Shown piece by piece: positions 21,806 to 63,770 of a stretch of 64,000 nucleotides of DNA. Origin of the DNA: Tubulanus polymorphus (taxonomy: Eukaryota > Nemertea > Palaeonemertea > Tubulaniformes > Tubulanidae). The DNA lies in NCBI RefSeq assembly GCF_964204645.1, contig NC_134031.1:16117307-16181306 (forward strand), given 5' to 3'. The position numbers and the translations under genes are program-made. Numbering within the stretch: the stretch's first letter is position 1; every line of letters begins with the position of its first letter. Under the pieces are notes generated by a model. That model had not been told where the DNA came from. It did no database searches and worked only from the letters and a program-made list of their open reading frames with translations.

Positions 21806-22261
21806 TTTCTGAGATCATATGATTTTATAATGATAACATAAACATTGCGCAATGCACAGGAAGTTCACCACACGACCTTGACTCTTATTTCGGTGACACC
21901 TATCCACATTTTGACATTTACTTCCTGATTGTGGAAATACTGCATATGAGTTAAACTGCAGCGTCCCGTGAGAGGACCCGGGCCTGTGACGGGACATGGG
22001 TCCTCTCACGGGACAAATGTAGAATTCTTACATGAAACGTCGATTCCAATGCTAGCGGTTTCGAGTCCCAATATTCTTATGTATTCTGCCTATAACGATT
22101 ATGAATAAATAAATTCAACTATCGATTGTAATTATTACATTTTCCATTTTGATTTCATTTATAAATACATAAAGGCCTACCGAAAAATTCTAATTTACTG
22201 CAGGGCCAGGGGGACAATAGGGGATGTGAATGCACGTTTTTCACGCAGGATTTTACAACGG

Positions 22262-23280: not shown

Positions 23281-23810
23281 ATCCGGAATTGGGAAACATT
23301 GCGGAAGAGTAAAAGGGGAAATATGAAAGAATTGATGATAACCTTTTTTACCGTGTAAAGTAATAATTGATAATTAAATGATAAGAAATAATTTAGTTTG
23401 GCGACAAAGATTAAGTAACCTAAAATGCTAAATTGATTTCGAATTCCAACGTATGTTGTTTATGTTCAAATATGAATAATATAGTCTTCGAATGTAATAT
23501 GGTTTACAGATTTTGATAAATAAATAACTGAACATAATTTCACATATATACGATTTGTTTTATGTTTTAAGGGGACATAGCCAATTTGGCTTTTAGTACG
23601 TACATCCAGCCATCATTGTACGCATATTGTTGAAATAATAATTTCTTGTTGTAATTTTTATACATGGCAAAAATACATTATCATTATGAACATGGGACTC
23701 AACATTGACAAAGTGGACAATTTCATTAGGTCTACCAATCGTAGATCAGTGGATCCAGCCAACGGACGGCGAAGGACTCAAGTAACTAAATCGGGGCCGG
23801 GTAGAAACCT

Positions 23811-25112
23811 GTCCTCTCACGGGACAGTATTTAAAATCGGGTCTTCTCACGAGACAGTATTTAAAATCGGGTCTTCTCACGGGACAGTATTTAAAATCGG
23901 GTCCTCTCACGGGACAGTGTGTTGAACCGGGTCCTCTCACGGGAGAGTGTGTTGAATCGGGTCCTCTCACGGGACAGTGTGTTGAATCGGGCCCTCTCAC
24001 GGGACAGTGTGTTGAACCGGGTCCTCTCACGGGACAGTATTTAAAATCGGGTTCCTTCGCGGGACAGTATTTAAAATAGGGTCCTCTCACGGGAGAGTGT
24101 GTTGAACCGTCTCCTCTCACGGGACAGTGTGTTGAACCGGGTCCTCTCACGTGACAGCAAGTTGATTCGGGTCCTCTCACGAGACATTATTTGAAACCGG
24201 GTCCTCTCACGGGACATTATTCAAAATCGGGTCTTTTCACGGGACAGTAAGTTGAATCGGTTCCTCCCACGGGACAGTGTGTTGAACCGGGTCCTCTCAC
24301 GGGACGGCAAGTTGATTCGGGTCCTCTCACGAGACATTATTTGAAACCGGTCCCTCTCACAGGACAGTATTGAAAATCGGGTCCTCTCACGGGACAGTGT
24401 GTTGAATCGGGCCCTCTCACGGGACATTATTTGAAACCAGGCCCTCTCACGGGACAGCAAGTTGAATCGGGTCCTCTCACAGGACAGTATTTAAAATCGG
24501 GTCCTCTGACGGGACAGTGTGTTGAATCGGGCCCTCTCACGAGACATTATTTGAAACCGGGCCTTCTCACGGGACAGTATTCAAAATCGGGTCCTCTCAC
24601 GGGACAGTATTCAAAATCGGGTCCTCTCACGGCACAGTATTTAAAATCGGGTCCTCTCACGGGACAGTATGTGAAATCGGGTCCTCTCACGGGACAGCGT
24701 GTTGAATCGGGTCCTCTCACGGGACAGTATTTAAAATCGGATCCTCTCACGGGACAGTGTGTTGAACCGGGTCCTCTCACGGGACAGTGTGTTGAACCGG
24801 GTCCTCTCACGGGACAGTATTTAAAATCGGGTTCCTACTCGGGACAGTATTCAAAATAGGGTCCTCTCACGGGAGAGTGTGTTGAACCGGGTCCTCTCAC
24901 GGGACAGTGTGTTGATTCGGGTCCTCTCACGGGACAGTGTGTTGAACCAGGTCCTCTCACGGGACAGTGTGTTGAATCGGGCCCTCTCACGGGACAGTGT
25001 GTTGAACCGGGTCCTCTCACGGGACAGTATTTGAAATCGGGTCCTCTCACGGGACAGTAAGTTGAATCGGGTCTTCTCACGGGACAGTGTGTTGAATCGG
25101 GTCCTCTCACTT
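23811..25112 (-). repeat. 30-bp satellite array, right arm (about 43 units, inverted)
   Basis: Complement of the left-arm unit. The cassettes are more varied here: AGTATTTAAAATCGG and AGTGTGTTGAATCGG, plus minor GCAAGTTGATTCGG and ATTATTTGAAACCGG forms. The core is CGGGTCCTCTCACGGGACAG. Confidence 0.9.
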
Positions 25113-25859
25113 TGAATTCTCTCTCGAGAGTGATCTAGGGCCATTAAGTTGCCCCCTCCACTTTTACTTTTGTTTGCAGTGTAACGCTTAACAAACGGTT
25201 ACTAACACCATTGGCACCAAAATTGTCAAGATACATTCACTTTATTTTCGATTAGTATGAGTCAGTCTATACACTAAAAATTGAAATTTCGATAGCTGTG
25301 GTTCTGTCTTCTCTTGATCCGATCTTCATTATTACATTTAATGTTTCGATTTGATGATATCATTGATCTGAAATAATAAAATTACGAACAAATTTCGATT
25401 ATTAACATGTTCTTAACATTATTTTGAGTGTATATAGTAACCAATCGAGTGCAGTTTCTTTCGACATTTCGTCTATGAAATGCAAAGTTTTCATTTTCCA
25501 TCGGGACCTGTGACGGGACAAGGATGTCCCGTCACAGGCCCCAGGTCCTCTCACGGGACATGCTGCATAGCTGCAGTTTAACCTGTTTCAAATACTGGAC
25601 ATTTTTCCCGGATATATCTGACGAATATCGATATGACAGCAGTCAGAGTGTGTCAGTTTCATTCATTTGGGTTGCTTTCTTAATCTTTGTAAGTAATAGC
25701 GTTTTCAGAAGTCTTTTTTTCAGCAGTTTGATGACTAAAAGTATTTTTGTAACTTATTCATAAAAAAAATGAGAGGGTATCAAAGTTTTGCAAAACACTT
25801 TCTATGGTCTTTCTATTATATATGGTGTCTGATAAGGGCCAAATACAATAATTTTCACA

Positions 25860-42125: not shown

Positions 42126-42834
42126 ACAAAATACCTCATGTTAGAAAGTATAATTTTAGTTTTATTGCTTTATGTAAAACTTAAGCTGATACATTTTACT
42201 CCATGGACGAAATATGTTTATGATTATGGCACAACGTACAAAAAAATTACTTTACAAAATTCTTGACTGCCGAAAAGCAACAGAACTATCCAACCGATAA
42301 ACCCTTACATGGCAGGTGTTCTAACAACCAGACAAAAATTTGGTTCTTAATTTCGTAATCTCAGTAAAATAATGTGTAAAATGAATGATATTTCCGTGTG
42401 AATAACAGGATTCTACAATAGCTACTAAAATAATCATATTACTACATCGAATTACATATACAATGTAATAGAGTTCTAGACAATATCTTTTTTTGTACTA
42501 ACGAAGCATGCGTATAATATATACAGTATATATATATATATATGTGATGTACATATAAGGTAAACTAGTGATTTACTAAATATATTGTATAAATTGATCT
42601 GTATATTATGATTGTATGAAACCCTGTTTCTTAATAGTGTCAAACACATTAAGCCATAGTGAAAAAAATGCATCCATTACTTACAATGAAACCACAGAAT
42701 CTTAGAATCAAAAGCCTTATTCAATTTAAGTTACATGGTAATATATACTTTTGGTGTTGCGGTTAATAATTGTGGCCAAATATATCGATCGATTCGAATC
42801 TTTTTCGAAAAAACCAAAATCATTCGCGCTGGAA

Positions 42835-43334
42835 TTAGACGTCGCACAATCGACCGGCTCCCTGATCCGACGTGCAATCATCGGGCATACCCTGCGACGA
42901 AGACCTCTTCGACAAATCCAACACTCGTTGCCGCAACAACTGAACGGCGTCCATCATGAAACTCTGTTCTTGTTGCTCGAACGGTAGCGTCAAATCGAGC
43001 ACGTCGCTTTCTTTCTTCCCCTCTTCAACTGTTTGAGAATTACTCGTCACGTAGTTATTATTCGACGAGTCGTCCGTCTGGAATTGCGGCGGCCATCGTT
43101 TCAGTTTCTTCTCTTTCATGCGTCGATTCTGGAACCAGACTTTGATCTGTCGTTCGGACAGACCGAGCTCGGCGGCGATCTCCGTGCGACGGTGCTTCGA
43201 GATGTAGTGATTGGCGAAGTACTCGCGTTCTAAGCCGACACGTTGTTGACACGAGTAAACCATACGATAGCACCGGCCGCCGTCGCGATACTTAAACGCT
43301 CGCAGACGGATGTCTCCTCCGCCGCTGCCGCCTT
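42835..43334 (-). CDS. Alternative terminal exon: homeodomain
   Basis: Acceptor TTTACAG precedes 43334; the exon starts in phase 1 and ends with TAA at 42835. It encodes about 165 residues. A full 60-residue homeodomain is present, with R5, Y8, L16, Y20 in place of the usual F, and the third helix ERQIKVWFQNRRMKEKK, so W48, F49, Q50, N51 and R53 are kept and M54 is Antp-like. RMVYSCQQ recalls caudal (RVVYTDHQ), while RRMKEKK differs from caudal's RRAKERK. I place it in the HOX-like (ANTP) class, divergent. The tail holds DVLDLTLPFEQQEQ and a Leu-heptad-like VQLLRQRVLDL. No hexapeptide-bearing 5' exon of a separate Hox-type gene is seen nearby. Confidence 0.85.
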
Positions 43335-45020
43335 CTGTAAACAAAGATTTTAAAAACATTTTAACTTCTCGAAACGGCGCGAAAAACTATCATGAATGCA
43401 GAAAACAATTTCAAACGATTTGTATGAGTACCGTAGTATAATAATATTGGATATATTTTTTTATGAGATTTCAGTTCTGACAAGATGAAAGCGATTTGTA
43501 ATCAAAATTGAAATCGACAACAGAAAGCTTGATTCGTAGTAGGCAAAATTTCATGCAAAATCACTAGCAAACGCATGCCATTAGTGTCTCACGTCATGCA
43601 ACTTACATCATGCAACTGCAATCATTTCAGCAAATAATTTATAATCAAGTTACCCTGATTTACTTGTATCCTTCAGATGGATCTGCTTTTACCATTACAA
43701 CCTTTAGAAAAAGCCCAGACTTTAGACTATTTCCCTATTAACTCTTGCGCATAAAATTGGTTTTGTTTGTATAATGATTTATTACAGAGACTGTCTGGTA
43801 ATAATACTTAAAGATCAATAAACATTTGAGGTTATGAAGTGAAAATAACTTCTATCAAATGGTAAATTGCTAACTGGATTCTGCAATAATCAGTACATCA
43901 TGGTTAATACATGGTTCAAGAGACAAATCTATAAAACATGATAGGGTTATTATGTCATTTCAACATCATTGTATTCCAGATGATATGAACCCAAGCGGGG
44001 TGTACGTGACAACTTGATTGACACTAGGGGGCACTGAAGTCTGCGTCTGCGATTCTAGATTAACGTTCGCGTTCATCCACTGTAACAAATCAGAATTCAC
44101 AGTCGGTAAAGTCGATGCATTTGAATCCCCCGCTGTAACCGAATTCGTAGATGGGTCCACCAGGGTTTGACTAGAATTGAACGAAGCTAGCGAACTTAAC
44201 ATGTAGTTTCTGTAACACCGTGTTTTCATGTGCTGTTGCAGGTTGTCCTTCCTCGTAAATGCTTTGTGGCATATGCTGCACTTGTGCGGTTTAATTCCGA
44301 GATGCGCCATACGGTGGCGCTGTAAATGATGCGACAAAACGAACGCCCGGTTGCACATTTCGCAGACGTATTTGCGTTCAGCTGAACACCCTGGTCTCCT
44401 TCCCTGCCATGAGGAGGACGTGGCGAACCTTCCTGTAACAATTAGAAAGAAAAGAAGTGTGATGCAGCAAATGACCGAATATGTCATCGTGACGACTACA
44501 AAATTACGACTAAGTAATTCGTCGCAGGATCAAATAGTGAATATTCCGAAATTAATGCAAATTCAAACTGATTACTTACATTCTGTCGAAAAAGGGAAAA
44601 AGAAATCATAAGAAAGGGCAAAACTGAATGGAAAAGGTCGGATAGAAAGAAGGCATAAAATAATGACAACAAAAATACAGTTAACAACAAAGGACAAAGA
44701 AGACAAAGGAAGGTAATAATAAAATGATTCTACGCAAACTCGGTATCGGATTCATCGAGTACCCAGATTAACAGGCTTGAAAAAAACTAAATCAATTCAA
44801 TGTACAATATGTAAAATATTTGAGAATTTATTTTGCATAAGAAGTGACAATAAAATAATTAGTTACATTATGCAGCGATATAAAAATGACCACAGATATT
44901 ATCTCCACATTGTTCAATTTACATGTGCATCAACGTATATACGAACAGTAGTAAAAATTCACTAGTTTCAACTATGTACAGAGTTTAATGTATATAAAGT
45001 TTCGTAGGTATCTTTTACAC

Positions 45021-45070
<50 letters not shown>

Positions 45071-48000
45071 GGTATAAACGACGCGTAGGAAAACGCCAAA
45101 AACTTCTCATCATGTGTAAAAGCCAGCAACCACCCTTTAGAGAGAGAGATAGAGAGAGACTATCATAGTAATATATTGGTAATGTTTTTAATATCACAAT
45201 TTTTCCGAGCCAATTTTTGTTGCAGATGAACTCATTCACAACGCGTAACTTTACTTATTATACTGCTCAAAACATGGAAGGTGGCACCTCGAATTACAAC
45301 AGGATCGTTCAATATCGAATTAAGTATCTAACACTAGAAAAAGCGGTATTTTCAAAATCATAATTTTGAACATATAAATTTCTATTCCTGCGTTGATCAA
45401 AGCTGCCATCTTTACTCTCAAGGTTCTTAATTTGAGCATTTTCATTTGGGCCAGCCATGAATCCTAATTTCTCGATGTTACTTTCATGATTTTGTAATAA
45501 AGAACTGAATTCACTTGCCTACAAACTACGGGGCAATATCGAGTATAAAGTATTGTCAATATTATGATCGAGGAAGGCATCAATTCGGAATATTGAAATC
45601 GTGGTCATGTAAAAAAGAATCAAAGACAAGAATTTAACCAGTTTAAAAAAAAAAAAACAATTCTGTTGACTAAACCTACTGCTACCTAAACAAAACACTA
45701 TCGTTCAATAATATAGAAATTTCATAAAAAGATTTTTAACAAGATATATTCATATGCCGAGAATACGTGGAATGTATGAAGACGGAATATCTTAACGATA
45801 TAATAGTACGTAAAATTGATAGAAAAAGATTATGCATTTTTACACGTTGTATATATGTGTGAGTGTGCGCGGAAGGCAAATTTATGCGCATCCATTAGAA
45901 AATAATTTGCATAGCCTAGAGTGCGTTTCAACGAAACTAGTCACAAATCGACTCTGATATTTTCACCAGCAGAATAAATGGAAAAACTAAAATACGACCG
46001 AGGGTTTAAGTCTAGGAGGAAATAAAGGCTATGCAAAGTTTCAGATCATATACAGTACATTTGAAAAGAGTTGAGATTTTTTTGGAATGTTAATAGTATT
46101 AACGAATTCAGATCTATCTTCAAGAGATATATAAATATCTATGTATAATATATCGTATAATATAAGACTCAATTGAGAGAAGAGTTTGTAAAAAAAAACA
46201 ATAATTCTGAAAATAATAGTTGTATACCAAAGCTGTAGGTTAGAATCTTGCTCCGAGTCACATGATCGTAAATTAACTAATTACGACTCCATAGTCCTGT
46301 CTAATTGACGACTACGGGAGTCCAGAAGACTAAAATTGTCCGTGCCGTCGTTGAGATTCTTTGCGGTCTAATAGAGAGATGAACAAAAAATTTCCGAGAA
46401 GACCTGGTTCGGTTAATAGCAGCACAATTATTATGGTTTCATTCGCATAACCTGTAAAATGACTCTGACAGCCAGAGTGGTTATGTATTTATATATACAA
46501 AGTTTAATTCCATCAAAACAAACGTTATTGATATTCAACGGTACTCACGCACGCGCGCGCGCATCTGAACGTTGGAATGTTTTATATCATTATGCCGTTA
46601 ATATATAAAAAAAATAACTGCCGCGGCTGCGCGGGGCAGCGCATAATGCTTCGCCACGATCAATATGTTCATGATATATCATTCAATATTATTCAAACAT
46701 TAAGATGAAAATTCTAACGAGTATATAAATATATATGTATATAAAAAACGTGTCGAGTCGAGATTCGTAGAAATAAGAAAAACATTTCGTACTATACGAA
46801 AGTGTGGAGATTCGAATAATGATAGAAATTATGCTATGTTTTAAGTACGAGTTTACACGTATTCACTAAAAAAAGCACATTTTTTGCTCGCGCCAGGCCA
46901 GGCGACGCGAAAAAAACATACCTCTCACCGTCATGATGATTATGATGATGATGATAATAATATATTTTACTTTTCATATACATATATTTCTTGGATAATA
47001 AAATAACGACCATCCTTGCATAGTTAGAATTATCGTAACCAGTAGTTCTTGGCACCAAGTTTTAGGTACGGAGTTAAACGCACCCCTATCAACATTTTCG
47101 AAATAAACTACGCCCGATCATGTTTTCACCTACTAAAAAACCGCACAGTCTAATGGGGACGTGCAATGCCAGGTTTCCCCACCAGATGGCGCGACAAATA
47201 CTCGGCCTTTCGTCGTAAAAATCAAACCGAATTTTTAGGCTTCCGAATCCACACGTTATCATATGACCCAACAAATATACTTTAAATTCATTTTTCTACT
47301 TAGATACCGGTGTAGTTTCCATAGTATTTGATCTAATTAAGAGAGAAGTTCATTCAAGTTTTCATTGAAACGTAGAAGATATTGAACGGGAAAGACCGAG
47401 TAACTACTAGCGACACCTGGCGGGTCCTCGCTTGCCACAGGAGCGTTGGTAGTTCCCCATTATCGAGCGTCATCCCGTTGATTTGTCGTTCAAACTGAGA
47501 ATACGATCGATATATTGAACATGATTTTTTCGATTAAAACAAAAATTCACTAAAAACCACTCGATTATAATATCGCTCGCTAAACGAATAACTATCAACG
47601 CGAAAATAAAAGAAAGAGAGGTATAGACAGCGAAAATACGCAACGCAAACTACACGACTTCAAAAATGAAGCGCGCGAGTCGAAAGTCGATCGTCGATTT
47701 AAGTAACTGGCGCCGTGGTCGGTTCTTCTTTCAGCAACTTCTGTCGACACGTCTTCTTATGTCGCGACAAGTTACTCTGCCAGCGGAAGATCTTCAGGCA
47801 ATTCTCGCACTGCAGCTGCTGGAACATGTGCATGCCCTTGATGTGCTGTCGCAGGTATCGACTCTCCGTGAATATGTCGCCGCAGATCTGGCAGATGAAC
47901 GACGTGCCCGACATGCTCGCGTTCTGCAGCTTGCCGGCGCATGTGCGCACGTGCTCGCGGTACTCGGCGTACATGAATCGGCGTCGACAGCCGCTGCACG

Positions 48001-51000
48001 TGTACGGCCGGATTCGCCGATGCGATTCCATGTGCTCCATGTACGTTTTCTGACTCGAAAAGCTGACGACGCAAATCGGACATTTGTAACAAACGCCGCC
48101 CTTCGCGATGCTCCCCGACGCGGCGACGCCCGACGACGACGTCGGCGACAGCTTGTTCTCGTTGTTGGCACAGTTCGACAACACGGCAACGGACTCTGTC
48201 GTCGCGCCGATTCCCGTCGCGCCCGAACGATGCTGCAGCAGTTGCTTAACGTGATTCATTCTCAGATCGAGGCTCTCCGGTTCCGGGCCTAAAAATACAG
48301 CAATTTTTGAATGAAAAAAAAAAAATGAAAAGAAATTCTCGCAAAAACCGTTGACCTCAACTCGATCAATCGGAATAACTAAACAGAATTCAGAAAAGAA
48401 GAAAGATTTTTTTGTTAGAAAAATGAAGCAGTATGAAAAGTGAAGTGATATTTCGGTTGTTTTTGAAATGGCAATCGAAAGCGAATTCCAGTTGGCCTGA
48501 GCAGAACAGTGCGAGCCTCTCTCCGATAGTAGTCCACGAAAAAAAAAGAGCGTTAAAAAGTCTCGGCTAGTTACGTTAGATATGTGCGTTACTAAATATA
48601 CACGTCTTAAAAAAAGAATGTCAGAGTGACAAGCTCAAGAGACACCCTCATCCTACATCCTAGCAGGCCAGGTGATGATAGACAGTGAGTGCACCAGCAG
48701 GCCGGGTGATGATAGACAGTGATTGCACCAGCAGGCTTGGAGATGATAGACAGTGACTGCACCAGCAGGCTGGGCGATGATAGACAGTGACTGCACCAGC
48801 AGGCTGGGAGATGATAGACAGTGACTGCACCAGCAGGCTGGGCGATGATAGACAGTGACTGCACCAGCAGGCCAGGTGATGATAGACAGTGACTGCTCCA
48901 GCAGGCTGGGAGATGATAGACAGTGACTACACCAGCAGGCTGGTAGATGATAGACAGTGACTGCACCAGATGGCTGGGTGATGATAGACAGTGACTACAC
49001 CAACAGGCTGGTTGATGATAGACAGTAACTGCACCAGCAGGCTGGGTGGTGATAGACAGTGACCGCACCAGCAGGCTGGGTGATGATAGACAGTGACTGC
49101 ACCAGCAGGCTGGGTGGTGATAGACAGTGACCGCACCAGCAGGCTGGGTGATGATAGACAGTGACTACACCAGCAGGCTGGGTGATGATAGACAGTGACT
49201 ACACCAGCAGGCTGGTAGATGATAGACAGTGACTGCACCAGCAGGCTGGGTGATGATAGACAGTGACTACACCAACAGGCCGGGTGATGATGGACAGTGG
49301 CTACACCAGCAGGCTGGGTGATGATAGACAGTTACTGCACCAGCAGGCCGGGTGATGATAGACAGTGTAGCCCTATTAGAGATAAGCAAAGAAAATGAAT
49401 TGAGAGCGAAGCAAACCCTACTACCAAATGTGAATGACGAAGTAAAGTATAAGTAAAGCGTCCAACAAAAAATAAAATCCTGTGCGACCTGCTGAGTCAT
49501 AGCAACGTGTACTAGAAGTTAGATCTGCGGTAAGTAGGCAGCCGGCCAAGTGAACTATCGCAGATAAGACAACAACCTTTCTAAACCGTCGAAATCTTCA
49601 CCACTTGATGAAGAAATATCTCCGTTGATTACGAAATCTAAGTCCAGATTGCGTTATCAGTTAATAAATCTAAGCATCTAAACATGCATTCTGATCTAAG
49701 AGTTATATTGTTAGTAATCAATCGCCCTTTTGATTTTAGTTAAATTAATCTTCATTAGCGGTTTTGAGCACCATGCAAAATATAAGCCCAGTGTTCATAT
49801 ACATTTTGACTGCAATATTCTTAGATTAGCATAATATTTTGTTCATGCAAATTTTATTCTAGCATTATTACTGATTAGTAGCAATGTCTTAGTCGAAACA
49901 TAGAGACAAATCTCGCGTCTATCTCTTGAATATTTACGTTCGATTCCGACATCGATTTTTAATTGATTCGGCGAAATTAATACATCGGATTCTTCTAGAT
50001 TAGACGATATGAGTACAACGAAGACGATGACAAAATACACGTACACACAGCGTTGTGATCACAGAGATACAGAGGAGGAAAGAGAAAGGAGGAATGAGTA
50101 AGGAGGCAGAATGAAAAGGAAAGAAACCAGGTGCCACAGCGAGCGGTTGTTAGTTTAGAACGAAATCGTGAAAACGGAACAGAAATCGAGGCACAATTTT
50201 CAGTCGAATTTGAAATTACTTTTCACATCGATTTCTAGAAATTTCTACGAACGTCTAATTCGAATAAATAAATGAAATCTACTAGAGGCAAACATGCATC
50301 GATTGATTGTTTCATCAGCGCGGCAACGAATTACAATTTTTAACGCGGTGCGTATAGAAGCTATGACTGAAGCTGTACAACAAGTTTTGAACTCATGCAA
50401 GGTGGCGCCACTTTCCGCCTGTTTACAAATTTGGTTTTCCCGGATTTTTCCATGTGGTTACACGAAATTCAGCGAGTGAACCAAGAGAAATATCTAGATT
50501 GCAAAATGCTACGATTCTTAGATTTTTCATTGAATCACGTACATGTGTACTGATAAAGAAACCTGTGGTCGATAACACTATCCAAGTGTTTTTGGTTTTA
50601 GGTTTTTGGTCAAATTTATCAAATTCTCTTGAGTTTTCCCGGATTTTTTCCAGGTTTTCCAGGTCAGTATTCACCAATACGTCGTATACCTCAATCATAG
50701 CTTCCGTTCTTTTTCATCAATCACGATAAAATCATAATAATCTAAGAAACCGAGCATCACTCACCTGCACGTTCCATCGCGACCGTCTGCTCGTCGGCGC
50801 CGTCCTCGTCGATGAACAAATCGGATTCGTTCTCGAGTTCGTGCGAGATCTCGAGCGTCGTCGAGCCGCCGTCGAACGAAGGTTCCTCTTTCACTTTAAT
50901 CGTGTCCGGCGTCGCGCGGCGACAGTTCATTTCGACGACGCCGCCCTCTTTTTTCACGATCGGCGTCGACTGCGCGTTCGGTATCGGCGCCGCGTCTTGA

Positions 51001-53600
51001 TGGTTGAGGTTGATGTCGCGCGCCACGCCGCTGCCGTGGTTCCACCGTTCGACGCTCGGCGAAAGCAACGATTTGTTGCGTACTTTTTTCTGGTGTCCGC
51101 CGATGGAAGTGTTCGACTGACGGAACTGTTCGCGGATCAGATCTAACGGATTGCCGCCACCGGTGGCGCCACCACCGACGAGGCTGTTATCGCAGTTTTG
51201 AAACGCAGCCATCTGGTAAACGGCTGTGTTGTTAATTTGTTCGGAAGCTTCTGCTAAACTATCGATATTATCATTATTATTATTATTACTACAACTGTTA
51301 TTGGAAGTGGGCGACATTCTACTGGACGCGGCGGTCGACTGCAGCAGCCCGGCGGCCGCCGTTATATTCGTCGGCTGCGGCTGAATCGTTGCCATGGAGA
51401 CAAGTGGATTTCGTGGAAGGAACGGATTGACGGGGATGGCGGTCGATATGTTTTTGGCGCAGTCGGACATACTATGGCTAGACGACATACTCTCGCTGGA
51501 AACGGAATGTCTTTGGCGTTTTAACGGCATCGAAGGAGCGTTGACGACGCCGCCGCTGCTGCTGTTGTTGTATTCGGATTTTTGGAACGACAGATTTTCA
51601 TCGTGCCCGCGGAAACGTTTCTTGTTGGCGTTGTCGCTGCGATACTCGAGTACGTATTCATCGTCCTCGTCGGAGACAACCTGGTCGACTGATATACGCA
51701 ACGGCTGACTTCTTTTACCTGAAGCACAATGTATAGGCATTGAAAAATCAAAAAAATCTCACCTCTTATTTGACTTTTTTTACACCTTTCCCTGACATTC
51801 TTTTAAATAAAAAAAAATTCCATGACTTCCCTGAATTTCAGGTTAATGGCCACCAACCTGTTTCAGTGTACTAGAAAGGTAGGTTTTACATATATCAGCA
51901 CTTTCACTACTACGCGCAGTTGAAATTGTGAATTTTTGAGTTTATTTTGTAATCAAAAATACATTTCATAACCCTTATCCTATTTTTGATAAATTTCAAT
52001 AACTATTTTTGAGAGGATGTGCACTAATATATCGGGGGCTACACTGGTTGCCTGTAGATTCAATTAAACTGATATCAAAATCCAAAGTATCTGTGAAGAT
52101 GCTTATTACTATTGATCCTTATATTATATAATTTATATTACATCATTCATTGCCAATAGTATTACGCAATATACCAGTATGTGTTATTTTTCAAGGCGTC
52201 AATAAACTTTCAAGTTTCTTGCTCGTACTTTCATTGTTAATTAACATAAGCGCTTTACAGATTGAAATAGAATTTCTAAGAGACTTCAACGCAGCTGGTG
52301 CATAAATTCTGATCGAAATATTTCTAGAGTAGACACTTTTCTCAAATTTTCCACAGATTTTCATTGAATACAGTATTTCACAGATTTTTCATTCAAATTA
52401 TGTTCACATCAATCTTTCCCCTGATTTGATTAATTCTTCAAGACGTAGAATATTCATTCATTTGAGGTCTATTCCTCTGATGACTTACGTCTGTTTTTCG
52501 CCGCACGCTTTGATTGCCATTTTAACCAGGTCGGTTCATCTACTTCTAAAACTAGATCTTCTATCACATCAATTTGGTCCCGTAAGCAATTTTTCAAGTC
52601 GTCCATGTGAACATGGAAAGGAATGTCTGAAAAATAAAAATACCGATATAGCCTAAATAGTTAAAACCCCTAAATCAGTCTGTTAACCCTTTCAGTGCGT
52701 CTACACTGCAGTGCAGTGTAATGATCGGTGATGTATTTTTGCTGGTACACCGCACTACGGTGTATTGATGTAATGAGTAATTAGTTTTTATCTCTACTGA
52801 AAGATGGCAGCACCTGTCAAACATAGTGAAATACTAGTAACTAATGATACACCGCGCCGCCGTGTAGACGCATTGTAGTGGTATACCCGTTATTCAAACG
52901 AATAGGGTGGAATTTTTTAAAATTTTCAAATTATCTCCAGCACTATCGGCTATTGGTAAGTCAGCACTGAAAGGGTTAATCTATCCGTGAATTTGCCCTG
53001 ACAATCATACAATCGAATTGGTATTGCATATGAGTCGGATTGGTACCGAAAAACCTGCGCAGTGAGGCAGGATTTTGTGCCGCGGCCGAGTCTTGCGATG
53101 CCATGGTTCGAATTCCTGCCAAGGGAGGAGGGGAAAGTGGCCACCCTGATCTACACTGCAGTGCGGTGTATTAATTGGTGATTGACTTCGGTGATACAAT
53201 ATTGATTCAATATCAGTTATCGCTATCAAAAGATGGCAGCACCTGTCAAACATTGCGAAATACAAGTACCTTAGTAACTAACACAGCACCACAGTGAATA
53301 TGCTCAATATCGGTATTCCCATTATACAAGGCACTAAGGGGTAAGAATTAGTTAGCACTGAAATGGTAAAGTGACCCCTCAAATTCATTTCCAAGAACCT
53401 AACCGTCTGGATTTCTTCAAATATATTGCCGCCAGGATTCAATCCATGAACCCTAAAGGATGACACATTAGGGAACCACTCAAAACCTTACACACGCTAC
53501 AGGTTTTTTCTGCTTACCTAATAAAATCATCTTAAAAATGTCTTTGTTCTTTAAATTGTAGAGTTTTCTTTATATCATTTCAGTTCACCAGATCCGTTTC
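42835..53600 (-). CDS. Transcription-factor gene with alternative 3' exons (two C2H2 ends, one homeodomain end); common part
   Basis: Common exons: 53518-53600 (5' UTR plus ATG at 53530, only M-I-L-L and one base), 52489-52626, and 50765-51718. The joined start reads MILLDIPFHVHMDDL, then an acidic helix-like stretch ending in EVDEPTWLKWQSKRAAKNR. The 954-nt exon is low-complexity: Ser/Asn-rich with KKRFRGH, PLKRQRH (basic, nuclear import-like), a poly-Asn run and an IKVKEEPSF SUMO-type motif. It ends in phase 1. Downstream lie exactly three exons that start in phase 1 and end in a stop: 47699-48288, 43966-44432 and 42835-43334. The predicted isoforms are 564, 523 and 534 residues. No BTB domain is present. 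The N-terminal module is not recognised but recurs in the gene at 58511. Alternative splicing is inferred from phase and layout. Confidence 0.75.
43778..43783 (-). terminator. Candidate polyadenylation signal for the 43966 zinc-finger exon
   Basis: AATAAA on the minus strand, about 185 bp after the stop at 43966. It supports this exon being a true 3' end. Confidence 0.5.
43966..44432 (-). CDS. Alternative terminal exon: two C2H2/C2HC zinc fingers
   Basis: Acceptor GTTACAG, phase 1, stop TGA at 43966. Fingers: CEMCNRAFVLSHHLQRHRMAH (C2H2), then after the linker LGIKPHK the second, CSICHKAFTRKDNLQQH ending H-x4-C, a C2HC variant. A Ser/Thr/Asn-rich tail of about 95 residues ends FISSGIQ. It is one of three mutually exclusive ends of the minus-strand factor gene. 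Confidence 0.85.
44433..47698. other. Long intronic/3' UTR stretch inside the factor gene
   Basis: AT-rich with no exon seen. It contains an (AAT)n run at about 45028-45070, a GA-rich patch near 45140, and an alternating GC stretch near 46553-46563. It probably includes the 3' UTR of the 47699 exon. Confidence 0.5.
45028..45070. repeat. (AAT)n microsatellite
   Basis: About 14 uninterrupted AAT triplets. Confidence 0.95.
47699..48288 (-). CDS. Alternative terminal exon: four zinc fingers (C2H2 and C2HC)
   Basis: Acceptor TTTTTAG, phase 1, stop TAA at 47699; 195 residues after the junction. Finger order: CPIC...HMESH (C2H2), CSGCRRRF...HVRTC (C2HC), CQICGDIF...HIKGMH (C2H2), CENCLKIF...HKKTC (C2HC). 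Alternating C2H2 and C2HC fingers near the C terminus resemble lola-type ends of insects, though the sequence is not close enough to claim orthology. GC content and codon use are clearly higher than in surrounding introns, as expected for coding DNA. Confidence 0.88.
48659..49368. repeat. 34-bp minisatellite, about 21 units
   Basis: The unit is CTGCACCAGCAGGCTGGGYG then ATGATAGACAGTGA, with point variants. It lies in the intron between the long common exon and the first terminal exon of the minus-strand factor gene. Open frames in it are an effect of the repeat. Confidence 0.95.
51775..51855 (-). repeat. Dispersed repeat family A, short inverted copy
   Basis: TTCCCTGAATTTCAGGTTAATG followed by GGCCACCAACCTG, complement of the usual CAGGGTGGCC head. 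Confidence 0.5.
52687..52975. mobile_element. piggyBac-like MITE, 289 bp, flanked by TTAA
   Basis: TTAA at 52683-52686 and 52976-52979 flank the ends CCCTTTCAGTGC and GCACTGAAAGGG. TTAA target sites and CCC-type ends are the piggyBac hallmark. The interior shares GATGGCAGCACCTGTCAAAC with 53150-53372 and, inverted, with 26970-27245. Confidence 0.85.
53070..53118 (+). repeat. tRNA-like SINE fragment
   Basis: Contains GTGCCGCGGCCGAGTC and a B-box-like GGTTCGAATTCC; no complete cloverleaf. Confidence 0.45.
53150..53372. mobile_element. piggyBac-like MITE, truncated copy
   Basis: CTACACTGCAGTGCGGTGTA and AGATGGCAGCACCTGTCAAA match the copy at 52687. The right end GCACTGAAATGG is mutated and the left end is missing. 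Confidence 0.65.
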
Positions 53601-54801: not shown

Positions 54802-56725
54802 TTAAGTCGATGTGTTCGATGAAGCTGTTTTGGTTATAAAGTTCGAGTTCACGAAACACATATCAGCCTGCCATCGATACGTTTCACCTTTACCGCGAAA
54901 TGGCACTTTGTTGAGCATATGAAATGGTTCGAATCCCATTTCTGACATCTTGCGAATGTCAGCTGCGTATATTCCCATGTTCATTACCATGTTACCGAAT
55001 ACATGGTACTCGACCAGATATTGCTTGACTCTATTCAGCATACCGTCTGCTAGAATATTGTGTAGAACGGCGAATTCATTACCTTCGATATCGATCTTTA
55101 AAAAGTCGATTACCATCTGAAAGCAGGGAGAATTATCATTAACGATCATTATTACGCAGGCATAAAATCTGTACGCTCAGAATACCGTTCCATTAATTCG
55201 TTTGTATGTAATAAATGAATGGTCCACGATTTGACGAATAGATGTCTCAAATTCATTGTCTTGAAATCGTAATTCAAGCCGCTTATCAAAAAAATATTTC
55301 GTTCGCTTACATTTTCTCGTTTGATCATTTTTAGGATCGACTTCAAAGTGCGAATTTTCCATATTTGATCGGTTCTCACGTATTCATCTTTTCTCGGAAC
55401 GAAACTGTCCGAGTCGGCACCACCAATACCGAGGTCGTAAAACCAGACTTTTTTCGAATGTTTGTGATCAGGTTTTCCCATACTGAAATATGAGGTCATA
55501 TTCAATATACTCGATTCTATGATTATTGCGAGATGCACTCAATCGATCATGTCTACACACACCTGGGGTCAAACGCATACACTTCGCAACCGTATTTCTC
55601 CATCGCATCATCGAACTGCCACAAATTACCAATTCTACAAGAGGTACCATTCGCGTGAGAAGTAATCTAATGAAATCTATTCCCAGTTAATAACAAGACT
55701 TTAAAATATTCGAAAAGAGAATTTCAATTACTTTCAGCACATGAAATATAGCATTTACTGTACTAATGTCTATTTATTAATAGATAATTATATTAGTATA
55801 TTAATACATAATAAGTACCCATCACAATGAATGAAGAAATGTCTCAAAAGTTTATTTAGATATTTCTAATGTTTGAATAAACCTTTGAGACATTTCTTCA
55901 TTTTTGCGGGATTTTACTATATCGATTTATCGCGGATATCGTGAGCTACAACTGATTCATTCGGGATTTGCTGTAGTTTGGAGCAATTTTCAAGTTGATA
56001 AATTCGCGTCGCAAAAAAGACACTTGCCCAAACGAAAGCGCTAAGCAGCCAGGTTTCGGAGAGAATGGTTCATCGTGGCAGCCGAACCAGCTTCCTTCTT
56101 CTTCGCGTATACCATATAAAACGCGTTTCTTACATTTGTAAGTTGGACCCTTTTTCAAATATCTGAAGACATACATGATGTGTAAATTGATCTCTTCGCG
56201 GGTCCTCATTGTTTCACGGGCATTCATTTTTGAAAAAACAATCGAATACTTTACTCACGCTCCTATCAATGCTTCACCTTCCCACCACTTTAAGTTCAAT
56301 TGACTTTGAGAAACTATTTAAAAAATCCACCAAAATGATCATTGTTCACATCAACATAGGCTTATTCAACTCACTAATGAAATCACTATAAATATATACT
56401 CATTCACATCCAAATGGATCCGACGTATTTATCAACAGAATTCTAGGTCTTTATTCGTTCGAAAGCATACTTACTTACATAACGCTACGGAATGAAACTT
56501 ACCCTCCGTTTTAGATGCATTGTTATCCAGGCCTCTGACGAAAACGTAACGAAGTGTCGACTGTTTATTGTATAATTGCTGTTCAAAGGTAATATAGATA
56601 TAGATTAAAAATTCACCGGGATTGAGTATAAAATTATTCCATTAACCTACACATACGTGTATGAGGATGATTACGACAACGACCAAACCGATCACCGCAG
56701 CAATATTCTGATACGAACGATTCAT
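54802..56725 (-). CDS. FkbM/METTL24-like methyltransferase, single-pass membrane protein
   Basis: Exons: 56657-56725, 56503-56578, 56259-56313, 56028-56204, 55563-55634, 55311-55482 and 54802-55116; 311 residues with every phase matched. Exon 1 is a type II signal anchor (AAVIGLVVVVIILIH after MNRSYQN), placing the enzyme in the Golgi/ER lumen or outside. Then KWWEGEALIGA, a Cys-containing segment CKKRVLYG, FSPKPGCLALSFGIGNLW, the SAM-fold block GCEVYAFDPSM, WFYDLGIGGAD, and the signature DFLKIDIEGNEFAVL near the C terminus. This order is that of METTL24-like FkbM-family proteins, SAM-dependent methyltransferases whose substrate is mostly unknown. The intron after 56028 has a GC donor. The gene lies between the two divergent paralogous factor genes. 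Confidence 0.9.
55142..55223. mobile_element. Family B MITE, short form, in methyltransferase intron
   Basis: CGATCATTATTACGCAGGCA at one end and GTAATAAATGAATGGTCC at the other. Confidence 0.5.
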
Positions 56726-58510
56726 CGTTTTTTACGAACACGCTACTGTTCAGGTTTTCCTTCTTCAGTTATGTTAACCGTAAATCTGAACACAATATAT
56801 ACCAGCTATTAACCGGTGACAATTGAAGACATCTGCCATGGATCAACCATATTGCACGAGAGTCCTCGAATATTATTATATTAGTTCGACGCGGAGGCTC
56901 GGGGGGTAATAAACTTCAGCAGTTTATTGCAATATCAATGTTATAACTATTGGGTTTTTTCTTCATGCTACATATTGGAAAAATGAACCCTATACCAACA
57001 TCAAACGGTTTTTTCGTTAAGGGTCCCCCGAGTCGGGGGCCCGACTGATCATCTTCGAGTCGGATCGAGCTGTATCACACTGTGAACTGGGTCTGTTTCT
57101 TTCAAAGTTTTAAAGTCCTTATGTGGATCAACATTAATACCTTAGTTCATCTACAATCGCCGAAACTCATGAATGGCGGGGGACCCCTAGTTTGACCGCC
57201 CGGGTTCCGGCCCCGAGAGTCGACATTCTGTCGAGCTAAACGAAACCGAATGTCTGTTAGTCGGAAATATATTCCGGAAATAGTTCGAAAATCAAGCGCA
57301 TTCGGTTATTAGTTCCGACCACTAGTCGACTAAATACGAAAACCGAATTTGGCCCTGGTTGACGCTAAATTATGAACCATTGACGCTTGTTGACGCTGCC
57401 GGTGACGATATTTTCTGGCACCATTCTTGATCCAACGCATTTGCAGCGGCTTAATTTATAAGTTATTATAAATACAACACGAAGAATTCTCTTCACCTTA
57501 TATGCTCTCTATTCATTAAAATGCCGATAAATGAAGTCTATCCCGTTACGCGATTTACACCTTACCTAAGTCGAATCCTTGTTTTAGCGTAATGTGTGGC
57601 GCTGCTGTGTTATTGGCTTGGGTAAGTCGTGTTTTATTATCATGATTCATCTTTCCTTATATTGCACTTCGTGATTATTTTCTTAACACTCCCGTGAAGC
57701 CCACAGACTTTAGAAGTTCTTAATTACTTGCAAATTGAGTAATCATGTAAAGCGTGCAACGGAATCGCTGCCATAAACATCCAAAATCATCACTACTACT
57801 TATCATCACACTCACTTGCCAGAGCAGGCCCCAGTGCCAGGGTTGCAGGCATCGACGTACCATAAGAAGAACCACTCAAGACGATTTTTTATTCAAGTCC
57901 GTATAAACTCAGATAGTTCTGCTGGGCACTATTACCTAATATGTGGTTAGGTAGTATTTGAATCGAATTGCCAATTTAATGACTAAAGTAAACGTGAATT
58001 TTCTGTGATTGAAGAAGCCGCCATTTTGTTTTTTTATCTATTGACTACTACACCTGCAATCACAATAGGCACAAATCGCTGCAGGCGCGGTGGGCAGATA
58101 AATGAATGATTTGTTCCAAATTGCTTGAATAAATGCCTAGTATAATTCCCTATCTAGTCATTGTACTTGTGCCAGTGAAACCCGCAGTGCTGCACAACTT
58201 TGAATGCACAGTTAACTCAAGGCTTACAACACGCCACGTCCAAAAATAGAGCAACCTTCATTCTTGTTTCTTTCAATGCAACCACAGTTCACAGATTTTT
58301 GTCTGCAATCGAAACTATTTTCATCAAATAAACTAATTGAATATTGTTTATGACCGTTTGGAAACAACCTTAGACTAGATTTCGCTGGCCTAGAGTGTCG
58401 ATGCTATCAGGGTCGTATTCCTGTCCCTAGAGGGCTACCTCGGTTGTTGAGCTATACTCCATCCATATGCTTTTTATCCATTGATCAATAAGCCAAGTTG
58501 TTTCTTTCAG
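56726..58510. other. Divergent intergenic DNA upstream of the plus-strand factor gene
   Basis: It should contain promoters for both the methyltransferase (-) and the factor gene (+). A GC-rich stretch with GGGTCCCCCGAGTCGGGGGC lies near 57019. No exon is supported; the upstream 5' UTR exon implied by the acceptor at 58510 is not identified. Confidence 0.45.
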
Positions 58511-61500
58511 TATGAATTAGCCTGCTGTTATCTGATTTTGAGTGTCCATCATAATTGAATGTGTGCTTAAAAATGATGCTTATGCTCGGTAGGTTTTGAG
58601 AAATGACCCTGAAATAATCAAGATGCCTTATAGCCTAACGTTAAATGATGGAACGTTTTCATCTTGTTTGTCTAGATATCCCGTTTCAAGTTTCTCAGGA
58701 AGACTTACAACGATGTTTAGAGTCGAATTTGGAGCTGATCGAGAATATAGTTATAGATGTCGATGAGCCGACGTGGTTGAAATGGCAGGATCGCAGACAA
58801 TCCCGATGTACGTAGTCGCTATACTCTCGTGTAGCTATGGGGGAAAACAGGACCCATAGAAGTCGGCCAAATATAACTCTGAAGTTACTGAACATTAAAA
58901 GTTCCTCACCTAAAGATTATAATGGTTCTAAACGATCTTAGAGATTTGTTTACTTTGTCCTGTTTTCTTCATTCAGTTTTAACTTTTAATTCGGATAGCA
59001 GTTATCTGGCCATTACGATCACATGGTCTCGTTAAGAGAAGAAATATTGGTTGGATTTTGATTAAATCCTTGTAGTAATGCTAAGAGTGAGTGACCTACC
59101 TAGTGCGTTGAATCATGGCTTTAGATAAGCCTAACCCAGTACATTAAATTCAAATGCCATGATCAGGTTCTTACAGATTACAGAAATCAAAAGAATTCAG
59201 GATTTATTTTTCCCCGCAGAAAAATGAAAGAAATCTCACTGATATTGGGGAAAATCAGGGAATTTGAATTTTGGTGTCTTGTTATCGCCAGTGACAAGTA
59301 AGAGCATAAGGAAACAGTCCGCACTGAGAATATTTTATAAATTGATCAGGGAATTTATGGTCTACCAAGTATAGCCTATGGGTGAAGGAAAATAAGGGAA
59401 ATATCAGGGTAATTTGGATTCCCTGTTCTTTTTGTTTGAGCCGTGTACCCGGTATATCCCTCAGTGCATTTTGCATTTTGTTATAGACCAGAACTCGGAT
59501 TCAAACTGAATATCAAATTTTTTCCAGATATGCAGCAGAATGCCATCTCAGATGACCAGATGGGAATGGCTGTTGCCGATGACGACGACGATATATCCTT
59601 CATCAAAGAGGAAAATATCGGTCACGACCAGTACAGCGCCGAAAGCCTACCCTACAACTCGAATCAGAACGCATTCCCGTACGGCAGCACCTCCGGTCAA
59701 ATGATCAGATCTCCGTATAAACAATTCCAGCATCGAAAACGTCGACGCCAGCCGTCGGCGAGCGCGACGAAAAACTCAACCGCGTCTCAAAAACGCCGCA
59801 ATCAAAATTTGTCTCGACAAGCGAAATATAATCCGCAACAGGCGCCGTACGCGTTGCCGCACGACCCAGCGGGCTCGTGGAGCGCGACGGAGGCCGGGGT
59901 ACGCGTACCTCCGTTACACGGGGGCGACACGAGCGGTCAGGGGACGTTTCAAACGGAGCAGACGGCGGTGAAACCGGAGCCGTCGTCGAGTGACGGTCTG
60001 GGCGGCGCCGACGATTACGGCAATTACGACGCGGATGCGCGGCAATCGTACGGGGAAAACCCGGGCGACGATTTCGCGGAAGGCGGCGGCAGGAATTACA
60101 CGGCGGATACGAGCGGTATGAACGACGACGGGTTGTATTTAAAGCGCGAGGACACTGACGGACAGTTGGAACAACGCCAGATGGATCCTCACGCTGAAGA
60201 TGCCACAAACGACGATAGTTTTTTCGCGGTCGATGATTCAATGAATTCTTCCGATGCTCAATCTGGTTCTGGTAAGTTTCACGTGAACAATGTCTGGAAT
60301 GTGGTGGTAGCGTGATCTCTTCTTGTTTTCGATGAAAAACAGTTTTCATTTATTTCGTGAAGTGGTCATTGGATGTGTATTATAGAACCCCACAACGTAG
60401 AAGATTTAAAGTGAAAATCTGTTGTACGATATTATGGCTAGAAAGAATGCTTCAGCCATTTCAGAGATTTATTTGAAATGAATATGAACTGCAATGTTAC
60501 CGGTACATTAAAGAAAAGTTGTTCAAGAGGTTACCCGAAACAAGGTCACCCGAAAAGTATCAGTGTAATAGATTTTCAATGTAAATCTTCAATATTGTGG
60601 GTCTTTATGTACAAAACATAGACTGCAACAAGTCTTCGATTGATTTAGTCATTGGATTGTATTCTGCAACCAAAATGATGTATTAGAAGTAAATTTTTCT
60701 CGAAACAAGAAGAAATCAACTTTACAGGTTGAGAATATGAAGATTTAGGGTATCATGTATCAAACTTTGATTTCATGTTATTGTAGAGTAGGAACGGGCA
60801 ATTTTGATAATTATTGGCCTGGTTTCAGTTTAACCGGAGATTTGCTGAAAAAAATTATGCGACGATAGAAGATCGCCGTGATGTAGAAGCTGTGAAAGAA
60901 ATTGATATTTATTGTTTTTCTTTGTCGCAAACTGTATAAGTGTTGTTTTTTGTCACATCTACCGTAGATTAGAATTGTTATTTTGATGAAGCACCGCAAT
61001 TGTCAATTATTCGTAAATGAGGGAGGGGGGTTAGAAAAGAACTGCTGAGTATGATAAGTGGGTAAAAGGCATGTATATCATATAGAGGTATTTTCAAATA
61101 CTTGAATACTGTTTTGCTGAATTCGACAACAAGGCTTTTACTGTGTGACTTAATCCCGAATATGGATGGAGCATTACCGATGCATCATGGTATCGATACA
61201 GAGGATGACTTTAGGTAGAGGATAGTTTTGGTTTTGGTTCTGGATACTGTCTGTTCAACTGGTGGATGAAGCATCTATTTTATGATATGGAACAGGATTT
61301 CCAATTATGGATCGGAAACGTCTTCGTCAATCTAGAACTTACGCCTTTTTGAGTCCATGAGGAATATGACGACACTACCGCCGCGACCGACCCAGTGACT
61401 GGATGGAAGAAACTTTCGTATTGACTGACTCCGATTTTTCTGTCATTTTCAGACTGGTTTGTGACGACGCGACGTAGCGGAATCGGGCAGTCGCAGCGCC

Positions 61501-63770
61501 GAAACAGTCGGTCGATTCCGTCTGCCGGAGGTGGCGTCTGTCACACCTGCGGTCGTACGTTCAAATATCGCGGCGATTTAAGGCGTCACATGCGAATACA
61601 CCTGGGAATCCGACCGTACGTTTGTGACGTGTGCGGACAGTCGTTCATTCAGATCGGAACGCTCTATTTACACGCGCAACGCATTCACAATTTAATTCTG
61701 CAGAGAAAACGAAACTCCTCGATTTAATTTCTTTCCGTCGTTCGCACGCGATCGAAACATGAGGCCGGAATCTCGCGGGTTTCGGAGGATTACGAGTCCA
61801 TGGCCGTAGAGATTCTAACACATTCTAAGCTGTCATTTGAACGTCTTTTTTTCTCCCCCTCTTTTCAGGGATGCGTCTCTCGACACTCGATGCGGATTCC
61901 GCGAATCCGAAGGAAGCCTATTGTCCCATCTGTCACAGATGTTTTGCCGGCGCGTACCGTCTTAAGATCCACATGCGCGTGCACGTCGGCGTCAAGCCGT
62001 TTCTGTGTAGATTTTGCCAATACAAGTTTTCCGATTACTCGAACTGTAAACGTCACATCAGTCGCAAACACACGTCCGATAAACAGGAGATTCTACAAGC
62101 AGTTGTTCACGTTTACAAACTTTAACTCTGCTATATTTCGTTTTCGCTGCAGTTAAACAGGATTTCCCCCCGTAATCGAATGTGATACGAATCCCTCGCT
62201 ATGATTTATAGAAAAGAAGTCACTTTATCCGTGATGTTTTGCGCCTAGGTTTTTTCGTCGCATGGTCACTCGCGTATAACGCCAGTTCGCGGAGTATCGT
62301 ATATGAATTTGATTTGTTCCAGCTAGGGCCTTAATGTTTCATTTACGGAAGATTTTTTTTACTGTTCTATGTAGTGGAACCTCGTTATAAAGACCTCAGA
62401 TATAACGATTTTTTGGTTATAACGAACTAGAATTACATCCCAAATAGTGGATTTCAATGATTTTCTTACTCGATCTACCGAACTATCGGTTCTAGACTTT
62501 CTGGTCCCCGGAAGTTTGTTGTAACGAGGTTCCTCTATAGTATATGATTTGTAGTTACGTGTTCAATAAAAGAATGTATTAATCGAAACGCGTTCTAAGT
62601 CTGAAGTTACTTTTTCGATTATGAGATAAAAGCATTTTGAGGTTTTAAGAGTAATTTTTATTCAGTGTCAGTATTGAGCTGGTTGCGGGTCTAGGGTCGG
62701 AGAATTCTTGTGATACATCATTCTAAGTCGTAATTTCAACAATATTTCTCCCGATCTTTTCAGGGTTGCGTCGCGTGCCAGCTCAAACTGCTGCCGGTTC
62801 GGCTAATTCGAAGGAAGTTTTTTGTCCCATTTGTCGCAAATGTTTGGCCAGTACGTACGGACTTAAAATCCACATGCGCGTGCACATCGGCGCTAAGCCG
62901 TTCTGGTGTCGGTTTTGCCAACGCAAGTTCGCCGACTATACGAACTGTAAACGTCACATCAGCCGTCGGCATACAAACGATAAACAGGAGATTCTACGAG
63001 CGATTATTCGCGTTGACAAATTGTAACTTCGATTTTCCAAAAAACGATTTCGCTGCATTTGTGAAGGGGATTTTTCTGAAATTAAAATACCTCTCTGTTA
63101 TCTATAAAACGAGGTCATTTTATCGGTGATATTTTGACCCTAGGATTTGCTACGTATCTTCACTTGCTGCCAAGCGCTAGTTAATGGAATATTGGATGTA
63201 AATTTAGTTTGTTCCAGCTAGAACCTTTAAGTTTCACGTTTCATTTGCACGAAATTTTGTAGTGTGTTTATATAGAATATGATTTATTATTTGTACCCAT
63301 GTGTTCGATGAAAAATATATTAATGAAAAAATTCTAAGTCTTCATTTCACTTTCTGTTTTGAGATAAAATTGCAGATGAGATGTTAGGATAAAAACTTTC
63401 AGAAGAGAGTTCGCATAGTCAGTATTGAGCTGGTAAAGGGTCTAATTTCGGGGAATTCTTACTCATTCCAAGCTGTCGTTTGAACTATATTTTCCCCATC
63501 TTTTCAGGGTTGCGTCGCGTGTCAGCTCAAACTGCTGCGGGCTCCGCTAATTCGAAGGAAGTTTATTGTCCCATCTGTCGCAAATGTTTGGCTACTTCGA
63601 AGGGACTTAAGATTCACATGCGCGTGCACATCGGCGCTAAGCCATTCTGGTGTCGATTTTGCCAGCGCAAGTTTTCAGATTATACGAATTGTAAACGTCA
63701 CATCAGCCGTAGGCATACGAACGATAAACAGGAGATTCTACGAGGAGTTATTCGCATCGACAAATTGTAA
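58511..63770 (+). CDS. Paralogous transcription-factor gene with at least four alternative zinc-finger 3' exons; common part
   Basis: Common exons: 58511-58588 (5' UTR plus ATG at 58573, M-M-L-M-L and one base), 58676-58807 and 59528-60271. The start MMLMLDIPFQVSQEDL matches the minus-strand gene, as does VDEPTWLKWQDRRQSR; exon sizes and phases are also alike (132 against 138 nt, 744 against 954 nt). The long exon has an acidic DDDDDISFIKEEN, a basic HRKRRRQ patch, and SUMO-type motifs IKEE, VKPE and LKRE. It ends in phase 1 at 60271. Four phase-1 exons with their own stops follow, at 61453, 61869, 62764 and 63508, giving isoforms of 388, 382, 384 and 384 residues. More copies may lie right of the window. 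Two upstream ATGs in the 5' exon are in line, so the exact first codon is uncertain. Confidence 0.78.
59165..59425 (+). repeat. Dispersed repeat family A, degenerate
   Basis: AAAATCAGGGAATTTGAATT and AAATATCAGGGTAATTTGG are the typical words. It lies in the intron before the long common exon. Confidence 0.45.
61453..61727 (+). CDS. Alternative terminal exon T1: two C2H2 fingers
   Basis: Acceptor CATTTTCAG, phase 1, stop at 61727. After a basic Ser/Arg-rich lead (RRNSRSIPSAGGG) come CHTCGRTFKYRGDLRRHMRIH and, after LGIRPYV, CDVCGQSFIQIGTLYLHAQRIH. Clearly different in sequence from the three exons that follow, so an older copy. No AATAAA is seen before the next acceptor. Confidence 0.85.
61869..62125 (+). 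CDS. Alternative terminal exon T2: two C2H2 fingers
   Basis: Acceptor CTTTTCAG, phase 1, stop at 62125. Fingers CPICHRCFAGAYRLKIHMRVH and, after VGVKPFL, CRFCQYKFSDYSNCKRHISRKH, then TSDKQEILQAVVHVYKL. It is followed by a polyadenylation signal at 62565 and carries a MITE in its 3' UTR. First of three closely related copies. Confidence 0.87.
62373..62540. mobile_element. MITE with GTGGAACCTCGTTATAA ends in the T2 3' UTR
   Basis: The left end AGTGGAACCTCGTTATAA mirrors the right end TTGTAACGAGGTTCCTCTAT, flanked by TA, about 168 bp. TA flanks suggest a Tc1/mariner-type target. It is absent from the matching place after T3. Confidence 0.7.
62565..62570 (+). terminator. Polyadenylation signal AATAAA after T2
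   Basis: Sequence GTTCAATAAAAGAATG; the homologous place after T3 (about 63302-63320) reads GTTCGATGAAAAATAT and has lost the AATAAA. Confidence 0.6.
62764..63026 (+). CDS. Alternative terminal exon T3: two C2H2 fingers
   Basis: Acceptor TTTTCAG, phase 1, stop at 63026. Fingers CPICRKCLASTYGLKIHMRVH and CRFCQRKFADYTNCKRHISRRH, tail TNDKQEILRAIIRVDKL. It differs from T4 by only about ten residues, mostly in the first finger helix and tail. Confidence 0.87.
63508..63770 (+). CDS. Alternative terminal exon T4: two C2H2 fingers
   Basis: Acceptor TTTTCAG, phase 1, stop at 63770. Fingers CPICRKCLATSKGLKIHMRVH and CRFCQRKFSDYTNCKRHISRRH. The unit T3-T4 repeats at about 744 bp including intron and UTR text, so the copies arose by tandem duplication of the whole terminal-exon unit. 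Further copies beyond 64000 are possible. Confidence 0.87.

Follow-up and report, generated by a model that had tools for sequence, protein, structure and literature searches.

We analysed a stretch of 64,000 nucleotides (hereafter the window) from the palaeonemertean ribbon worm Tubulanus polymorphus (C7:16117307-16181306; genome 267.8 Mb), which carries on its minus strand a gene, LOC141908832 (gene A), with one common 5' part and three alternative 3' ends. Positions given below without a contig follow window numbering. Coding exon 1 (53600-53518) contains the ATG at 53530 (MILL..), has a phase-1 end and encodes an N terminus that is the same in the database proteins P0001-P0003. Common exon 2 (52626-52489) encodes an N-terminal domain (DIPF..WLKWQ..) that is helical in structural models, and common exon 3 (51718-50765) encodes a linker and stops at a phase-1 donor, where ..GCAG at the end of the exon is followed by GTGAGT. 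Approximately 2.5, 6.3 and 7.4 kb downstream of this donor lie three acceptors, preceded by ..GCTGTATTTTTAG at 48288, by ..CTAATTGTTACAG at 44432 and by ..ATCTTTGTTTACAG at 43334. The exons that they open are end 1 (48288-47699; C2H2 zinc fingers; isoform X1), end 2 (44432-43966; two C2H2 zinc fingers; isoform X3) and end 3 (43334-42835; isoform X2), in which a homeodomain occupies 43105..43272. Phase 1 is used at the junctions throughout. Each end is closed by a stop, and each has at least one AATAAA behind it on the same strand, which a motif scan placed at 44827..44832, 43778..43783 and 42161..42166, respectively. This layout is that of mutually exclusive alternative terminal exons.

The initial annotation of this locus had proposed a common part ending in phase 1 at 50765 and, on the same strand, three stop-containing exons that begin in phase 1, and translation confirmed both the arrangement and its boundaries. 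Its assignment of zinc fingers to two of the ends and of a homeodomain to the third was borne out by a Pfam scan, which gave PF00096 matches in ends 1 and 2 (E = 7.7e-13 and 2.2e-11) and a PF00046 match in end 3 (E = 1.9e-20) covering profile positions 2-57 of 57. The composition of the homeodomain exon is also coding-like, with a G+C content of 0.54 vs 0.31-0.32 on its flanks and a third-position G+C content of 0.65. Short motifs in the homeodomain end (VLDLS, VLDLT) and in the first finger end (SLDLR) recall CtBP-binding motifs, and we take them, by this resemblance, to be candidates. The intron directly before the first zinc-finger end contains a minisatellite (48662-49367) of 34-bp units in 20.8 copies.

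Gene products and the shared N-terminal domain

Joining common exons 1, 2 and 3 to the homeodomain exon gave a product of 534 residues, and a protein search with this product returned isoforms X2, X3 and X1 of LOC141908832 as its top three matches (NCBI/UniRef). Scripted joins of the window exons yielded translations identical to all three records, P0001 (X2), P0002 (X3) and P0003 (X1), which have their first 368 residues in common. The joins of the common part to each of the three ends are all present in the NCBI/UniRef gene models X1-X3. Alternative models in RefSeq are, as a rule, backed by RNA sequencing at every intron. These models support, at their own level, the earlier proposal that a single gene makes proteins with the same N terminus and with DNA-binding domains of unrelated folds.

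The AlphaFold model of isoform X2 (17 sequences) had a mean predicted local distance difference test score (pLDDT) of 53, with values of approximately 70-74 in the helical N terminus, block means of 91-98 in the homeodomain and values mostly below 50 in the linker; one further helix was placed behind the homeodomain. Modelled alone, the domain encoded by exon 2 (approximately 45 residues) formed three helices (mean pLDDT 80, six sequences), whereas in the full-length X2 model it formed two longer helices, a disagreement that leaves the fold unsettled. A known fold for this domain was considered and dropped, given that no PDB match was obtained either by profile search (best E = 0.1) or by Foldseek (none). 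A Pfam scan of the gene A common part detected neither BTB nor any other family, the best match being to an unrelated family at E = 0.13. The initial annotation had likened gene A to insect lola; the likeness holds for the architecture but does not extend to an N-terminal BTB domain, given this Pfam result and the all-helical models.

The N-terminal domain is widespread in the genome. A search with the better query gave 34 matches at E ≤ 0.001 (27 with the gene A query), not all of which need be working genes, and 15 of the 34 are located in C8:11.41-11.64 Mb. Across 15 aligned copies, the invariant residues are C, W, W and R. The domain defines a large, unnamed family in the ribbon worm that may take the role played by BTB in insects. 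Family proteins P0059-P0061 are encoded on contig C8. A Pfam scan gave no match for P0060, and by eye its C-terminal stretch looks like what we take to be a SANT/Myb-type helix set.

Affinities of the homeodomain end

The window homeodomain is of the ANTP class, as judged from Pfam, trees and PDB matches; its sequence matches in the PDB are headed by one engrailed construct, followed by six of CDX-2 or CDX-1. It grouped with Cdx in two trees (support 92/86 and 90/88). In the tree with support 90/88, a position in the posterior Hox clade was equally good, with a log-likelihood 0.49 higher and a p value of 0.516 in the approximately unbiased test (p-AU). Since Cdx and posterior Hox fit equally and sixty columns cannot decide between them, a firm class for this homeodomain was dropped.

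The genome contains at least 115 homeodomain matches (150 of 170 candidates scored). For the tree with support 90/88, 35 of the 115 matches were fetched, and eight of these 35 stretches failed the motif filter and were left out. By the same tree, the worm already has a Cdx (C5:5608620) and a posterior Hox gene (C6:5318228), and the window homeodomain is therefore an extra one. Ten Hox-type homeoboxes are seen in the Hox region at C6:5.32-5.63 Mb, and Cdx lies 20 kb from a second homeobox in the ParaHox region at C5:5.59-5.61 Mb. A YPWM-type hexapeptide is the motif expected in the exon before a Hox or ParaHox homeodomain. No such hexapeptide is present in the 368-residue common part, whose tryptophans, found at positions 38, 41 and 276 only, are in no motif of this type. 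The window exon thus resembles Cdx and posterior Hox genes in the grouping of its homeodomain and in its phase-1 start, but differs from them in its location on C7, outside the Hox (C6) and ParaHox (C5) regions, in the absence of a hexapeptide and in its place on a zinc-finger gene.

We also compared exon phases. In all five Hox/ParaHox homeodomain exons examined, the best acceptor candidate is in phase 1, and two of the five have in addition a weaker candidate in another phase. Because these five exons share phase 1 as well, agreement in phase was dropped as proof that the homeodomain exon is linked to the common part. The window exon is most likely derived from a terminal exon of caudal or posterior Hox type. 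A Hox-type terminal exon that starts in phase 1 would be in frame at once when moved behind a finger array.

Paralogous loci with finger arrays

The domain-finger arrangement recurs elsewhere in the genome. In the window itself, gene B is a divergent paralogue on the plus strand that runs from 58645 to 63767 and on to C7 ~16186975, with further finger frames past the window edge. Its N-terminal domain exon (58676..58807) is 52% identical to that of gene A and in phase 1 on both sides, its common exon (59528..60271) has a phase-1 GTAAGT donor, and four open frames of two fingers each follow (61425-61724, 61841-62122, 62727-63023 and 63429-63767). In a further stretch that was fetched, C7:17.690-17.709 Mb, a single N-terminal copy at 17.709 Mb precedes 18 same-strand frames, each with two or three fingers. 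Since the same N-terminal domain and finger arrays are found at these paralogues, the family constitutes a lola-like system with another N-terminal domain. Between genes A and B, the minus strand carries what looks by eye like a methyltransferase gene (54802-56750).

A paralogue on contig C8 may also have a homeodomain end. At C8:10.775-10.797 Mb, one strand carries, in this order, a common exon, an array of nine frames with two fingers each and a frame for a homeodomain end of 96 residues. The N-terminal copy, detected as a domain match, is at C8:10797119-10796973, and the common exon is an open frame at 10795267-10796418 with a GTAAGT donor, both on the minus strand. The homeodomain exon lies approximately 1.7 kb past the last finger frame, with a candidate acceptor at 10774917. 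A phase-1 acceptor site is present at all ten C8 ends, in a scan that sought phase 1 alone and says nothing about other phases. The database protein P0058 (LOC141910263) is identical to the C8 prediction over exactly its first 404 residues and then continues into the first finger end, and this identity confirms the C8 gene. A join of the C8 common part to the homeodomain exon as well is inferred.

The reading that the C8 homeodomain has no 5' exon of its own was dropped, as unfiltered frames reveal a possible exon of 162 bases directly before it (C8:10775648-10775487, minus strand), in the gap that separates the last finger frame from the homeodomain exon. This candidate has no ATG, is in phase 1 on both sides and gave no second match in the genome search; it may represent an additional exon of the homeodomain isoform or a piece of a separate gene. 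The joined C8 product was predicted without it.

Across the genome, two of the 27 N-terminal copies have a homeodomain on the same strand within 25 kb downstream (at 9.4 and 22.3 kb), with 0.145 expected. The other copies have no homeodomain on their own strand, or none within 467 kb. Seven further N-terminal copies have no nearby homeodomain when their positions are compared by eye with the list of homeodomains. In two analyses, the best tree that unites the window and C8 homeodomains fell short by 7.89 and 11.79 log units, with p-AU values of 0.078 and 0.142, respectively. A single origin of the two homeodomain ends, both of which form long branches, is therefore not rejected by p-AU.

Alternative ends, competing explanations and known systems

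Gene A is very probably a lola-like transcription-factor locus in which a common part is combined with one of three ends, two bearing fingers and one a homeodomain. The common part, consisting of a short helical N-terminal domain and a mostly disordered linker, would be spliced to one terminal exon per transcript. Given that each end comes with its own acceptor in phase 1, its own stop and a poly(A) signal, the choice would be made among competing acceptors and coupled to cleavage and polyadenylation, and the homeodomain form would need skipping of both finger exons. All forms would have their partners in common through the shared domain, and the end would set the DNA that is bound.

Several points weigh against this reading. 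Isoforms X1-X3 are predicted gene-model records, and their joins appear to be known at the gene-model level. The frame of the window homeodomain has an upstream phase-0 acceptor candidate (pyrimidine 0.69 vs 0.62), and the fit in phase is weak evidence for linkage because Hox/ParaHox homeodomain exons tend to start in phase 1. Three protein searches found no member of the N-terminal family outside T. polymorphus among the candidates scored: one gave three family proteins, all LOC141908832, among seven candidates, and another, with 53 proteins at E ≤ 1, gave four family members, all from T. polymorphus. This absence of relatives in other species is a weak negative, because two of the searches scored the best 8000 and 7987 candidates by word sharing and the matches listed were mostly homeobox proteins. 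None of the 53 proteins listed contains the C8 homeodomain end. A rival reading is a separate homeobox gene with a small or non-coding 5' exon of its own, within or beyond gene A, in which case X2 would be a read-through product or a chain made by annotation. A phase-1 start looks normal for such a gene, the homeodomain frame extends to an in-frame ATG directly upstream of the acceptor (MFLKSLFT), and a short stand-alone protein would escape the length filter of the protein search. However, the interval 43335-47698 has no minus-strand frame of at least 80 residues besides the finger end, shorter exons being possible, and the frames of at least 80 residues in 48289-50764 overlap the first finger exon or the 34-bp repeat, with one further frame of 96 residues. 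The databases, moreover, place the homeodomain exon in LOC141908832 with exactly the predicted join, and we regard a separate gene as improbable. Attachment of the ends by trans-splicing from promoters of their own seems more improbable by a clear step. This occurs at mod(mdg4) (PMC12692577) and in part at lola (PMC1947980), according to the sections of these papers that were available, but the parts of gene A are in order on one strand within 11 kb, so that cis-splicing suffices.

For the C8 locus the balance is closer. Its homeodomain exon may belong to an unrelated homeobox gene behind the finger array, which would leave the window locus as the sole case; we consider this a serious possibility, though not the likelier one. 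No database product with the homeodomain end is found among the matches listed, the possible 162-base exon directly upstream could be such a gene's own, and, without the window locus, approximately 0.14 same-strand homeodomains are expected within 25 kb for the other 26 copies, an expectation that led us to drop proximity as proof of the C8 link. On the other hand, the gap of approximately 1.7 kb lies within the spacing of the other ends, the most pyrimidine-rich of five acceptor candidates (0.81) is in phase 1, and the 162-base exon would fit between the common and homeodomain exons because it is in phase 1 on both sides. If both homeodomain ends are spliced to common parts, a shared phase 1 might have allowed homeobox exons to be captured at least twice, once in the window (caudal/posterior type) and once on C8 (weakly labial-like), so that loci exchanging zinc fingers would have come to encode homeodomain factors too, a scenario that we think unlikely as a whole. 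Under such capture, the window homeodomain may even correspond to Post1, a Hox gene apparently missing from nemerteans.

The lola-like reading of gene A can be set against systems already described. In the portions of the lola literature at hand, a common BTB part is combined with alternative C-terminal exons, most of them with zinc fingers (PMC1947980, PMC11426971). Gene A is similar in its common 5' exons and its three stop-containing 3' exons in one phase, but its N-terminal domain is not BTB and one of its ends is a homeodomain; in the same portions, the fingerless ends of lola are described as being without fingers and not as bearing another DNA-binding fold. Common exons and alternative 3' ends, more than 30 in number, are also features of mod(mdg4) (PMC12692577, PMC5666082). 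As far as the accessible text indicates, mod(mdg4) differs from gene A in its BTB N terminus, its trans-spliced mRNAs and its ends, which are mostly FLYWCH (PMC11426971, where that text contains neither 'homeodomain' nor 'homeobox'). At CUX1/CASP (ceh-44/cone-1 in C. elegans), a homeodomain protein and another protein have a common N-terminal part and alternative 3' exons (PMC11789633); in contrast to gene A, the alternative product is, in the part of that source at hand, a Golgi membrane protein rather than a transcription factor of another fold. Neither CUT domains nor a Golgi membrane end was found in P0001-P0003 (Pfam scan, E ≤ 0.01). In the portions at hand, an exchange of fingers for a homeodomain is described for none of lola, mod(mdg4) and CUX1/CASP. 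Finally, the gene model TCALIF_11436 of Tigriopus californicus (P0022), labelled 'similar to br Broad-complex', combines an N-terminal BTB with homeodomains. It differs from gene A in its BTB N terminus and in having two homeodomains, and it suggests a related BTB-homeodomain combination in a copepod that may have arisen independently.

Searches aimed at a described exchange of zinc-finger and homeodomain ends in one open-access library listed none, most subscription journals being outside that scope. We judge gene A to be a lola-type locus with a new trait, the homeodomain end; the C8 locus may be a second case in this genome. It is already known that alternative ends can supply different zinc fingers of one and the same fold. 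If our reading of gene A is correct, splicing would here exchange whole DNA-binding folds while the regulatory half stays constant, and the shared intron phase of terminal exons would provide a simple route for the capture of a Hox-type homeobox by another gene.

Elsewhere in the window, a long repeat at 22230-25134 has frames open on both strands (CPVRGPDST.. and TGQCVESGPL..) and is likely no gene.

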